The notes under the pieces: generated by a model
The model's input: the letters and a program-made list of their open reading frames with translations, nothing else
Database searches by the model: none
What the model was told of the DNA's origin: nothing
Part shown: piece by piece, positions 3,115 to 6,598 of the stretch
Position numbering within the stretch: position 1 is the stretch's first letter
How the letters are laid out: every line of letters begins with the position of its first letter
From: Synechococcales cyanobacterium PMM_0083
GTDB lineage: Bacteria > Cyanobacteriota > Cyanobacteriia > Leptolyngbyales > Leptolyngbyaceae
Assembly: GCA_949127665.1 (NCBI GenBank)
Contig: CASBQE010000033.1
Span: 1 to 34,536 of the forward strand
Reading direction: 5' to 3'
DNA length: 34,536 nt
Translations under genes and position numbers: made by a program

Positions 3115-3513
3115 ATGACTCAATCAAATGACTTTTCTCAAAGAGTTGATCGTACCGAAGGTCAGATTGTTGACCTCCAACTCACTGCGAACCGTATCCT
3201 CCAGGCAATTGACAAAAACTCAGAAGACATTGCCGTCTTGATCGAAGTTAGCCGTCGCAACAGCGAAGGGATTTTAGCCTTACGAGAGGGTACAGCAGCA
3301 TTACAAATGTCCCAGATGCGAACCGATGCTGCCTTACAAGTGTTTCAACAACATACGGATGCCGCTATTGAACGCCTTACAGCGAGTAATGAACGCCTCA
3401 CAGCAAGTAGTGAACGCCTCACAGCGAGTAATGAACGCCTCACAGCAAGTAGTGAACGAACCGATCAGCTTCTTGATTATTTAATTCGCCGCGACCAAAG
3501 ATCACCAGAATAA
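3115..3513 (+). CDS. Coiled-coil protein with heptad tandem repeats
   Basis: A 132-aa hydrophilic protein, almost entirely predicted alpha-helix. The N-terminal part (VDRTEGQIVDLQLTANRIL and following) resembles short cyanobacterial coiled-coil proteins of unknown role. The C-terminal third is built from the heptad NERLTAS/SERLTAS repeated four times, ending in ERTDQLLDYLIRRDQRSPE. Heptads with Leu at one fixed position suit an elongated homo-oligomeric coiled coil. No signal peptide, membrane span or catalytic motif. No clear Shine-Dalgarno precedes the ATG. It converges on the GH1 gene, with about 80 bp between stops. Function unknown; the repeated part may vary in copy number between strains. 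Confidence 0.7.
   Translation: MTQSNDFSQRVDRTEGQIVDLQLTANRILQAIDKNSEDIAVLIEVSRRNSEGILALREGTAALQMSQMRTDAALQVFQQHTDAAIERLTASNERLTASSERLTASNERLTASSERTDQLLDYLIRRDQRSPE
3370..3453 (+). repeat. Four tandem 21-bp coding repeats (two 42-bp units)
   Basis: Four exact-length 21-bp copies starting GAACGCC, at 3370, 3391, 3412 and 3433. Copies 2 and 4 are identical; copies 1 and 3 differ at one base. The pattern therefore fits duplication of a 42-bp unit. Each copy encodes one heptad of the coiled coil and keeps the frame. Confidence 0.95.
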
Positions 3514-3596: not shown

Positions 3597-5162
3597 TTAA
3601 TCCTGGGAAATCTGAGTCGCCAAACTACCTTTCATTTCGCGGATCAGTTGAGCGTAGGTTTCCGAGGGGCGATCGCCTAAGTGATCTTCCACAATGCGAT
3701 CGCTGCCTTGAGTAAAGTCGATCGAAAGCAGCCCAAACCGTGGCGTGTAAGATCCCCATTCGTAGTTGTCTGTAAGCGACCAGTGCATATAGCCCACCAT
3801 TGGCACACCTTCCTTAATCAATCGCTCCACCTGAAACACATGAGCTTTCAAAAACTCGCTGCGTTGTAGTTGATCCCCGCGTCGGGATGCCACGCTGTTA
3901 TCTGGTTTGCGGCGTAACGCCATGCCATTTTCGGCAATTAAAATCGGGTAATTGCCAATTTCTTGAGCATAAAACTTACAGAAAAAATGCAATCCCTCTG
4001 GCAAACTGCGCCAATCCCACCATTTGCTGGTGATGCCGCTCATCAGCCAGCCGCGAAAATCTTTCGTCTCAAACTCAAAATCAGAAAACGAGGGCAAACG
4101 AAAAACATGGGCAATAAAGGGATCGTAGTAGTCAATCCCAATAAAATCGAACACTTGAGTGCGGTGTGAAGCTTCTAGTTCTTGCAAAAAGCTGCCTAAG
4201 TGGCGGGCATCAAAATTACGTCGCCCTAATCGATTGCTAAACCAGTGAGCGAAGCGCCCCAGTTGATAGGGCAAATCTCGCCGAAACGAAAGATTTGCAG
4301 TTTTTAGCGCGGCTTCCATCCGTTGAGCGTTGGCGTAGACATAGGCTTGCAGGTCGGCGGGGTCTACCGATCGCAGCCGCAAACTGAGCAAATCCCAAAT
4401 GACTTTTTCAGACCAGTAGAGATCGCTGCAATAGGTGTTGAGCGACACGCGGGGAGTTGCCCAACCTTCGGCTTCATACAGGTCGTGAATCAAATTATAG
4501 GCACGCACATGAGCCGCTAGCAAATGGTTGTAGGCTGGAAAAACCGATCCGATTCCCAGCATGGAATCGGTGGGAAATTGTCCACTGAGGTAGGTATTAG
4601 AAACCAAAATATTGGGTTCATTCAGGGTGATGTACCAGTGGATTGGGGCAAGCTGATGATGGTCAATCAGGCGACGGTTAATGTGAGCAACGGTGGTTTG
4701 AACATACTCGCCAAAGCGATCGATGGTGTCTTCTGTAAGCCATGCATCTAACCCTAGCCAAGCGGGATGGGTGAAGTGATGCAGGGTGATCACAGGCTCC
4801 AGCCCATGACGGCGACAGGCAGCAATGCGATCGGCGTATCCATCCAACGCCTCTAGGTCAAATGCTGGAGGGGCAGGTAGAGATATTTCTGTAGACGGCT
4901 GAATTCGCGCCCATTCTAAACCCAGACGAAAGGCAGTTAGCCCCATCTTTTGGCAGGCTTGAAAGTCTTCTTCGTAGCGCGTCCAAAATTCTGCTGCTGC
5001 GCCCGTTTTCATCACGCTGCCGCGCTGTTCGCTGAGAAACCAGTTGTTTTTGGGTTCGCCTTCGCCGTTGTAGCCACCTTCAATTTGATAGCCGGAGGTG
5101 GCGACTCCCCAAAGAAACGGCTCTGTTGTTGAAAGAGGAGCGGAATTAGAATTATTCTGCAT
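3597..5162 (-). CDS. Glycoside hydrolase family 1 (beta-glycosidase-like)
   Basis: A 521-aa TIM-barrel glycosidase. The N-terminus has FLWGVATSGYQIEGG (Q26 in the sugar site), then TLHHF with H129, the acid/base motif TLNEPN (E182), the nucleophile motif LIAENG (E411) and HWSLTDNYEWG (W461, E468, W469). All catalytic residues are present, so it should be active with retention of configuration. It has no signal peptide and is longer than the usual ~450 aa. The region 250-335, where typical members carry GxYPxxM, is instead hydrophobic and basic and does not resemble the standard sequence. Its start overlaps the end of the upstream glycosyltransferase gene by 11 bp, indicating translational coupling. 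Beta-glucosidase is the default guess; because the partner looks like a glycolipid synthase, a lipid-linked sugar or transglycosylation substrate (as in plant SFR2, also GH1) is a possibility, not a conclusion. Confidence 0.9.
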   Translation of the reverse strand: MQNNSNSAPLSTTEPFLWGVATSGYQIEGGYNGEGEPKNNWFLSEQRGSVMKTGAAAEFWTRYEEDFQACQKMGLTAFRLGLEWARIQPSTEISLPAPPAFDLEALDGYADRIAACRRHGLEPVITLHHFTHPAWLGLDAWLTEDTIDRFGEYVQTTVAHINRRLIDHHQLAPIHWYITLNEPNILVSNTYLSGQFPTDSMLGIGSVFPAYNHLLAAHVRAYNLIHDLYEAEGWATPRVSLNTYCSDLYWSEKVIWDLLSLRLRSVDPADLQAYVYANAQRMEAALKTANLSFRRDLPYQLGRFAHWFSNRLGRRNFDARHLGSFLQELEASHRTQVFDFIGIDYYDPFIAHVFRLPSFSDFEFETKDFRGWLMSGITSKWWDWRSLPEGLHFFCKFYAQEIGNYPILIAENGMALRRKPDNSVASRRGDQLQRSEFLKAHVFQVERLIKEGVPMVGYMHWSLTDNYEWGSYTPRFGLLSIDFTQGSDRIVEDHLGDRPSETYAQLIREMKGSLATQISQD

Positions 5163-6405
5163 GAGCGATTCGTGAAACGTTAGCCAAGCTTTCCACAGGA
5201 CTCTCTGCGGGAATCGCGTTGGTGTTTATTGCAGTGGTCTTTAACTCGCTGGTATCTAAAGTCTGCATCACCCGACGAGCGTGGAGATCATTGAGGATGT
5301 GTTCGGCAATATTGAGTGCCGCCCGTGGTTGCCCAAGTTCCAATGCGGATTGGTGCATCTCTGCAAGGCGATCAGGGCGCTTCAACAAATATTGCACAGC
5401 AGGTGCCACCATCTCTAGCAGCCGTAGCTGCACGCCAGCACCGGCTGCGGCAATCACATCTGCATTTTGCTCCTCTTGCCCAGGAATCGGATCTACGATC
5501 ACCATTGGGGTTCCTCGCGCTAAGATTTCACTGGTAATTAAGCCGCCTGCTTTGGTGACTACCAAATCACTTGCTACCACCAAATCATCTACATAATCAA
5601 TCTGTTCTAGCTTACGCAACTGGACGTGAGCGCTATCGGTCACCTCTTCCAGCGCTTCCACCAATTTTTCATTTCGTCCTGCAACCACGATCAACAGAAT
5701 AGGCAATGGGCTTGCCAGCAAATCAACCACCATTGATTTGACCCGGCGAGGATTCAAGCCGCCCCCGAATAGGGTAACTACGGGCATGTTGTTTGGCAAA
5801 GAGTGACGCGATCGCGCTTCTTCCTTAGTTTTCGGCTCCATGATCTCTAGCTTGACCGGAATCCCCGTTACGTGCAGCACTGCCGGATTGACCCCCCGCT
5901 GAATCAACAAATTGGCGCTGAGAATATTCGGCAGAAAATAGCCATTCACACCGTGATTAATCCAAGTGCTGTGGGCGATCACGTCGGTTACTACGACATA
6001 TTGGGGTTTTGCGGTGTGAGCATTTTGCTCCAAAATTTGCAGTAAACGGCTGGGAATTTGCTGGACACAGACGATCGCATCAGGATCAAACTCTTTAAGC
6101 AACTGTTCCAAATCAGCAAAAAAGGGGCGTTCTAGTTTTGCCCAAGTCAAGTTACTGTCGAGGGATTTTTCCAGATCGCTGATGTCGCTACCTTCATAAA
6201 AGGCTTTATACAGTTGGGGAGCCTTTTCGCTCAATTGCTTGTAGGCTTGCGTCACCGCACTCCGGTAAAGCGGATTGGCATAGCTCAAGGCATCTTCGCT
6301 GCGAACTTCCACCTCAGAAAGGCGCTCAAATGCATCACAGAGCGCCTTTGCTGCATTCAGATGTCCGGCTCCTAAAGAAGCGTGTAGGATTAAAATTCGC
6401 GTCAT
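5152..6405 (-). CDS. Glycosyltransferase, MGDG synthase / UgtP type
   Basis: A 417-aa GT-B glycosyltransferase. The start is set at the ATG of MTRILILHASLGAGH because this is the natural beginning of the N-terminal MGDG-synthase domain (GAGH at 12-15, where the family has GxGH). An upstream TTG in the same frame adds 33 unlike residues and lies in a tandem duplication, so I reject it. The C-terminal nucleotide-sugar domain shows GGGLNPRR (214-221), TKAGGLITSE (284-293) and PGQEEQNA (308-315), the pattern shared by plant MGD1 and Bacillus UgtP. The likely reaction is transfer of glucose or galactose from UDP-sugar to diacylglycerol at the membrane surface. The main cyanobacterial galactolipid route uses an unrelated GT2-type enzyme, so this would be an additional activity. 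First gene of a pair with the GH1 gene. Confidence 0.85.
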   Translation of the reverse strand: MTRILILHASLGAGHLNAAKALCDAFERLSEVEVRSEDALSYANPLYRSAVTQAYKQLSEKAPQLYKAFYEGSDISDLEKSLDSNLTWAKLERPFFADLEQLLKEFDPDAIVCVQQIPSRLLQILEQNAHTAKPQYVVVTDVIAHSTWINHGVNGYFLPNILSANLLIQRGVNPAVLHVTGIPVKLEIMEPKTKEEARSRHSLPNNMPVVTLFGGGLNPRRVKSMVVDLLASPLPILLIVVAGRNEKLVEALEEVTDSAHVQLRKLEQIDYVDDLVVASDLVVTKAGGLITSEILARGTPMVIVDPIPGQEEQNADVIAAAGAGVQLRLLEMVAPAVQYLLKRPDRLAEMHQSALELGQPRAALNIAEHILNDLHARRVMQTLDTSELKTTAINTNAIPAESPVESLANVSRIAHAE

Positions 6406-6480
6406 ACAATTCCGTTGCAGCTTGGATGTTGGGAAGACAGATGCCAGTGTCAAGGCAATCTTTACACGCTCCGCTCTATT

Positions 6481-6548
6481 TCTCAAGTCTAGTGAGTCAT
6501 CCAAAGACGGATTTTCTCAAGTCTAGTGAGTCATCCAAAGACGGATTT
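6481..6548. repeat. Perfect 34-bp tandem duplication upstream of glycosyltransferase
   Basis: Two identical adjacent 34-bp copies (6481-6514 and 6515-6548), each beginning TCTCAAGTCTAGTGAGTCAT and ending CAAAGACGGATTT. They lie 75-145 bp upstream of the glycosyltransferase start, in the position of a promoter or leader. This may be a recent slippage event or a duplicated binding site. Confidence 0.95.
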
Positions 6549-6598
6549 TTTCTAAGCAAATATCTTTAGATGAATGCGTACTATCGAATCAGAAATTA

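Follow-up and report, generated by a model that had tools for sequence, protein, structure and literature searches.

A glycosyltransferase and a GH1 protein encoded as a conserved gene pair in cyanobacteria and Verrucomicrobiota: a possible two-enzyme glycolipid module

Do a glycosyltransferase (GT) that resembles the plant synthase of monogalactosyldiacylglycerol (MGDG) and a glycoside hydrolase family 1 (GH1) protein, encoded by overlapping genes, act together, and if so, what does the second enzyme do with the product of the first? This question is raised by a stretch of 34,536 nucleotides from Synechococcales cyanobacterium PMM_0083 (GenBank assembly GCA_949127665.1, contig CASBQE010000033.1, positions 1 to 34,536), hereafter called the window. 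Both genes begin with ATG, their order of transcription on the minus strand is GT and then GH1, and the 11-bp overlap that the initial annotation had pointed out is real (Table 1). The genome of this organism (4.6 Mb, 484 contigs, 85.9% complete) contains one copy of the pair. We found that the GT/GH1 pair is a real, conserved module that occurs far beyond chance, and we tentatively propose that its two enzymes make and then pass on a hexosyl lipid.

Conservation of the gene pair

We searched 388 cyanobacterial genomes for homologues of both proteins (E ≤1e-60 for GH1 and E ≤1e-30 for GT) and compared their occurrence. GH1 was found in 39 genomes and GT in the same 39, whereas neither gene was found in the other 349 at these thresholds. 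The two genes were adjacent in 39/39 genomes, co-directional and with GT first, at gaps of –37 to +293 bp as given by the match ends. The co-occurrence was statistically supported by Fisher's test (p 1.6e-54), a value that treats genomes as independent and ignores shared ancestry; the holders are spread over 28 of 160 genera in a patchy pattern, and together these observations leave little doubt about the pairing. The initial annotation had allowed for an adjacency restricted to one strain, and adjacency was instead conserved across the cyanobacteria. This together-or-not-at-all occurrence suggests that the pair works as one unit. The counts also bear on the simplest alternative, namely that an ordinary cytosolic beta-glucosidase happens to adjoin the GT gene. 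Such a reading would suit the ordinary fold of the GH1 protein, which ties with structures throughout the GH1 family, but it is already contradicted by the co-occurrence and adjacency in 39/39, by the separation of the GH1 clade from ordinary GH1 proteins (see below) and by the presence of an ordinary, different GH1 elsewhere in the same genome (contig C12). We therefore regard it as extremely improbable.

A second set of loci comprised 79 distinct loci of GH1 homologues, taken from the best 80 of 131 matches, and the window (80 in total). The GT gene was directly upstream on the same strand in 71/80, that is, in 34 cyanobacterial loci (window included), 36 loci of Verrucomicrobiota and one of Methylococcales; the pair is not peculiar to cyanobacteria, and among the loci examined it is about equally common in Verrucomicrobiota. 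Planktothrix and Phormidium are among the genera represented. The spacing in these 71 pairs had a median of 6 bp, with 26 overlaps and 54 pairs spaced by 50 bp or less; in two of them (L006 and L015) the GT is split between frames. Among these best matches, the closest record was Leptolyngbya sp. ULC077 (95% identity for GH1 and 91% for GT). The nine unpaired loci consisted of seven from Actinomycetota, one from Methylobacter (L043) and one (L065) in which the contig starts within the GH1 gene. When GH1 alone was counted, it was present in 7/145 genomes of Verrucomicrobiota. A separate phylum sample of 194 genomes yielded GH1 matches in 15 (E 1e-30), of which four were family members, with four adjacent GTs, and 11 had only partial N-terminal matches (35–43% identity); five further genomes contained a GT at 34–35% identity on a contig lacking a GH1 match. 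No GH1 homologue was found in a plasmid collection at E 1e-40. Beside the GH1 gene of two actinobacterial loci lies a divergently oriented gene that by eye resembles an LmbE-type deacetylase (L074:4817-5656 and L075:1807-2610).

We further compared the histories of the two proteins. In trees built from 25 pairs only, both proteins separated cyanobacteria together with four Verrucomicrobiota from the rest (support of 97/96 for GH1 and 98/96 for GT). Because the two trees agree on this main split, the pair travels as a unit. GH1 and GT distances were correlated (r 0.776 for 32 cyanobacterial loci and 0.877 for 37 other loci), and 0/999 permutations reached the observed value, to which shared species history contributes. 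We also considered partner swapping, that is, a replaced GT in cyanobacteria: the GT stem there is long, the mean cross-phylum distance is 0.70 for GT vs 0.53 for GH1, and, with distant outgroup GTs included, the cyanobacterial GT was not nested in the manner of its GH1 partner (p-AU 0.061, and 0.0115 in a second test). This candidate was dropped because the pair-only trees share the main split and a single clade of all pair GTs was not rejected (p-AU 0.159 and 0.142).

Families of the two proteins

The GT matched the Pfam domains PF06925 MGDG_synth (87.4 bits, cut-off 25) and Glyco_tran_28_C (23.9 bits, cut-off 22). Among solved chains, its close sequence matches were UgtP (E 8.7e-30) and MGD1 (E 2.2e-22) only, followed by MurG. 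An AlphaFold2 model of the GT, computed from an alignment of 48 rows of its own family (pLDDT 84.9, pTM 0.84), had MGD1 as its closest structure both in Foldseek (E 1.8e-17, vs 1.4e-11 for the first other fold) and in VIA-align (4wyi, Z 34.3, root-mean-square deviation 3.0, 318 residues aligned), in which MurG was the next fold (Z 26.9). The columns invariant in the 48 rows include D141, H145, G287, G288, E293, G309, Q310, E311 and N314, and H15 is kept in at least 90% of them. The likeness to MGD1 claimed in the initial annotation is thus borne out by domain and fold, which support placing the GT in the MGDG synthase/UgtP group (GT28 type). Enzymes of this type convert a UDP-alpha-hexose with inversion into a beta-hexoside. 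Two loci of Verrucomicrobiota (L117 and L118) contain a second type of PF06925 GT, in frames of ~650–680 residues on a long separate branch; no GH1 match was seen on the stretches examined.

Group membership by itself leaves room for an acceptor other than diacylglycerol, the sugar being put on or taken off a prenol, a sterol-like lipid or a secondary metabolite, for example as a mask. Two observations would fit this idea: the GT scores well under the curated cut-off of the UgtP equivalog NF010135, the processive diglucosyl-diacylglycerol synthases (177.7 vs 500 bits), and the hosts of the pair are very wide, acidophilic and methane-using bacteria included. On the other hand, UgtP and MGD1, its nearest solved relatives by sequence, both use diacylglycerol as acceptor. 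As for a hopanoid acceptor, squalene-hopene cyclase was found in 21/39 genomes with the pair (one match being weak, E 3.7e-67) and in 158/349 of the others (p 0.32); this co-occurrence is unsupportive, and hopanoids are not required. We consider an acceptor other than diacylglycerol unlikely.

The second protein matched PF00232 with 198.1 bits (cut-off 22.6) and fell under the cut-off of the beta-glucosidase equivalog TIGR03356 (196.7 vs 478.5 bits). Its catalytic glutamates are E182 in TLNEP and E411 in IAENG, conserved in 80/80 and 79/80 (one gap) homologues, respectively, in agreement with the initial description of the enzyme as catalytically complete. The AlphaFold2 model is an ordinary GH1 barrel (pLDDT 88.2, pTM 0.92), and VIA-align placed 50 rows between Z 38.2 and 35.9, so that neighbouring ranks are ties. 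An unusual region, initially placed at residues 250–335, was confirmed: residues 250–338 span 88–97 residues in the first 20 family members, compared with 68–74 in 12 ordinary cyanobacterial GH1 proteins (~19 residues fewer), 55 in LacS and 31 in SFR2, and the model predicts helices at 253–259, 268–289, 297–316 and 319–331. In the more careful tree, with 27 rows of which four are partial PDB pieces, the family formed one clade (support of 100/100) with a stem length of 2.28 changes per column and the ordinary GH1 rows formed another (100/99). The GH1 protein thus belongs to a clade of its own with a long stem and is no soluble cellobiase, and the grouping with soluble beta-glucosidases that had been set against the lipid hypothesis was not observed. 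Two other GH1 arrangements were seen. Several cyanobacteria (G005, G207, G217, G226 and others) contain a third GH1-like kind, in frames of ~730–790 residues that match GH1 profile positions 62–416 weakly, and at L033:5995-8511 GH1 is fused within a single frame of 838 residues, the C-terminal part of which weakly matches glycoside hydrolase family 26 (28.6 bits).

SFR2, the plant galactolipid:galactolipid galactosyltransferase, is itself a GH1 protein, and the initial annotation had raised it as a possible relative. We used a provisional SFR2 sequence in the tree, the alignment and the loop count. SFR2 joined three archaeal LacS-type rows in the 27-row tree (support of 96/90), and a forced clade of the family and SFR2 was not rejected (p-AU 0.196); in a quick tree of 59 rows the forced tree was slightly better (p 0.562). 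From the start-motif glycine to FRxG there are 59 residues (G19–F78) vs 108 in the provisional SFR2 sequence (G64–F172), and by this count the Loop A insertion near the N-terminus is absent from the GH1 protein. Loop A is needed for the transferase activity of SFR2. No membrane span was detected in the GH1 protein (maximum KD19 1.05), and 0/80 members exceeded 1.8. The supposition that the family is bacterial SFR2 proper, a galactolipid:galactolipid galactosyltransferase by descent, can point to the two forced-tree values, but the best tree separates the two, Loop A and a membrane span are lacking, and SFR2 retains Asn where the family has Asp (see below). These results lean against SFR2 kinship, and we consider it very improbable that the family is SFR2 proper.

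The signature Asp and the proposed reaction

We aligned the 80 family members with 14 ordinary GH1 proteins, three archaeal-type proteins and SFR2. Two residues before the active-site Tyr, Asp344 (D344) was present in 80/80 family members, whereas Asn occupied this site in all 18 others (14/14 ordinary, 3/3 archaeal-type and SFR2); the Asn of the N-x-Y motif, a feature of beta-glucosidases, is thus replaced by Asp throughout the family. At a second site, W122 (HoBGLA numbering) corresponds to F130 in 79/80 members (one gap) and to W in 14/14 ordinary GH1 proteins, with W, F and F in the archaeal-type rows and H in SFR2. The other glycone-pocket residues checked (Q26, H129, N181, E182, Y346, E411, W461, E468 and W469) match hydrolytic GH1 enzymes.

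Excerpts of published work on GH1 enzymes describe both sites. Asn282 of Tt-beta-gly contacts the nucleophile and, in >90% of simulated frames, hydrogen-bonds the acid/base Glu164 (PMC6467970). The mutation N282T raised transfer over hydrolysis in this enzyme, and W120C, at the site of F130 in the family, was a further variant with promising transglycosylation (PMC4803828); in Thermotoga neapolitana, N291T increased the ratio of transfer to hydrolysis ~threefold (PMC9113129). An Asp at the site equivalent to Asn282 is not reported in these excerpts of the GH1 mutagenesis papers. With D344, an altered residue between the catalytic glutamates, transfer would be somewhat likelier than hydrolysis.

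As a tentative but credible reading, we propose that the two enzymes form a glycolipid module: the GT would supply a beta-hexosyl lipid, the hexose of which the GH1 protein would pass on. The strict pairing with GT first fits the maker and the user of one beta-hexosyl lipid, and the stereochemistry fits as well because GT28-type enzymes make beta-glycosides and retaining GH1 enzymes use beta-hexosides. The GT, as an inverting enzyme at the cytosolic membrane face, would use UDP-hexose as donor and glycosylate diacylglycerol or a related lipid, the product being a beta-hexosyl lipid. Lacking a membrane span, the retaining GH1 enzyme would meet this lipid at the surface, form a glycosyl-enzyme on E411 and donate the hexose, most probably to another glycolipid; hexosyl lipids would thereby be lengthened or redistributed. 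The lipid concerned may be any beta-hexosyl lipid and need not be a galactolipid. This scheme would follow the logic of plant SFR2; common descent with SFR2 is no part of the proposal. We infer that the GT product serves as the GH1 substrate, that the acceptor is a lipid and the sugar a hexose, and that the second step is transfer, not hydrolysis.

An alternative for the second step is a make-and-remove cycle, in which GH1 would hydrolyse the beta-hexosyl lipid of the GT and thereby hold one glycolipid at a steady level or, under stress, return its sugar and diacylglycerol for reuse. Hydrolysis is the activity of most GH1 enzymes and the remaining glycone pocket of the family is of the hydrolytic kind, whereas the invariant D344 occupies a site tied to the balance of transfer and hydrolysis; we regard such a cycle as possible, though not probable.

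Several observations weigh against our proposal. In HoBGLA, the equivalent mutation N294T did not raise the yield of oligosaccharide but lowered it (excerpt of PMC4803828). The family signature is Asp and the engineered mutants carry Thr, and Asp344 could equally tune pH dependence or lower activity. In the genomes of the seven actinobacterial GH1 loci, PF06925 had no match anywhere at E 0.001, and the GH1 protein can therefore do without this GT, at least among proteins at 36–37% identity. In Methylobacter, a truncated, out-of-frame GT remnant lies beside the intact GH1 gene (L043:4800-6010); that genome has an intact member of this GT group on another contig. Finally, as a sign of membrane contact, residues 297–316 of GH1 score high as an amphipathic helix, and 55/80 members exceed the usual threshold, which we take to be 1.34, in this region; the best window anywhere also exceeded it in 11/12 ordinary GH1 proteins. 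Such scores fail to set the family apart, and a membrane-binding helix was dropped as evidence.

In its most far-reaching form, the proposal would make the family a natural GH1 transglycosylase, apart from SFR2, that lengthens hexosyl lipids from its own MGD1-type synthase, with the Asn-to-Asp exchange as the switch from hydrolysis to transfer, in a two-gene unit of several phyla that in some cyanobacteria provides a second glycolipid route beside MgdA. We regard this combination as conceivable and doubtful.

Layout of the locus and comparison with known systems

The features of the locus are summarized in Table 1. A longer GT frame that starts with TTG and reaches 6504 exists; homologue alignments begin at the ATG at 6405. 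The 34-bp direct repeat starts 74 bp upstream of the GT gene, and apart from its two copies no other sites of the unit were found in the genome at ≤3 mismatches; it is a possible control region. Elsewhere in the window, a 21/42-bp coding tandem repeat (3369-3458) within the open reading frame 3115-3513 encodes ERLTASSERLTASN-like protein repeats. No neighbouring family beyond the pair was shared by >6 loci. LptA-like, DAHP synthase, CTP synthase, glutamine synthetase-like and carboxypeptidase genes were neighbours in single lineages, and no common theme was found among the 10 neighbouring proteins scanned.

Table 1. Features of the GT/GH1 locus (positions in the window)
Feature	Position	Strand	Basis
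GT gene, 417 residues, MGD1/UgtP-like (GT28 type), first of the pair	5152..6405	-	PF06925, AlphaFold2 model, MGD1 fold
GH1 gene, 521 residues, second of the pair, separate GH1 clade	3597..5162	-	PF00232, tree, AlphaFold2 model
11-bp overlap of GT gene end and GH1 gene start	5152..5162	-	Read directly from the sequence
MGDG_synth acceptor-side domain, GT residues 15-184	5854..6363	-	PF06925 profile positions 1-169 of 169
E182 codon, catalytic acid/base	4617..4619	-	E in 80/80 family members
E411 codon, catalytic nucleophile	3930..3932	-	E in 79/80, 1 gap
D344 codon, family signature in place of the Asn conserved in the GH1 NYY motif	4131..4133	-	D in 80/80
Enlarged helical region, GH1 residues 250-338	4149..4415	-	Length comparison and model helices
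34-bp direct repeat, 2.1 copies, possible control region	6479..6549	.	TRF, 100% match

Both enzymes belong to known families, but their obligate pairing is unrecorded and the GH1 clade undescribed; we found no description of the pair in open-licence papers on GT/GH1 pairing or bacterial SFR2. One tenth of the sampled cyanobacterial genomes encode a GT28 enzyme of the plant type together with an obligate GH1 partner, and this would be a second route to glycolipids, so far unrecorded. Should the GH1 protein transfer rather than hydrolyse, the reaction by which SFR2 protects plants from freezing would have an independent natural counterpart, and the invariant Asp would allow the change from glycosidase to transglycosidase to be probed at a single residue.

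Among known systems, plant MGD1 (GT28; PDB 4wyi and 4x1t) shares with the GT the PF06925 domain, the whole fold and the GGG...E and GQE..N motifs in the nucleotide-binding half; it differs in that the identity is 25% in the structural alignment and that the GT is bacterial and paired with a GH1 gene. According to excerpts of Sato and Awai (PMC4742570), MGD1 homologues occur in plants, algae and green non-sulfur bacteria. UgtP/YpfP (PDB 9wde) is the best sequence match among solved structures, but the GT falls far under the NF010135 cut-off and lies on a separate branch. Bacterial GH1 beta-glucosidases (TIGR03356; for example TmBglA and Tt-beta-gly) resemble the second protein in fold (Z 36–38) and in most of the glycone pocket, whereas D344, F130, the enlarged region and the separate clade distinguish the family. 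SFR2 is alike in its GH1 domain and two active-site glutamates and, if our proposal is right, in acting on a beta-hexosyl lipid; the family differs from it in having neither Loop A nor a membrane span, in its clade in the best tree and in Asp for Asn. The route through MgdA (GT2) and an epimerase also yields a hexosyl-diacylglycerol, as the GT would on the present reading. It uses an unrelated GT family and, in the same excerpts, MgdA and the making of MGDG via epimerisation are stated for all cyanobacteria (PMC4742570), whereas the GT/GH1 pair was present in 39/388 of the genomes.

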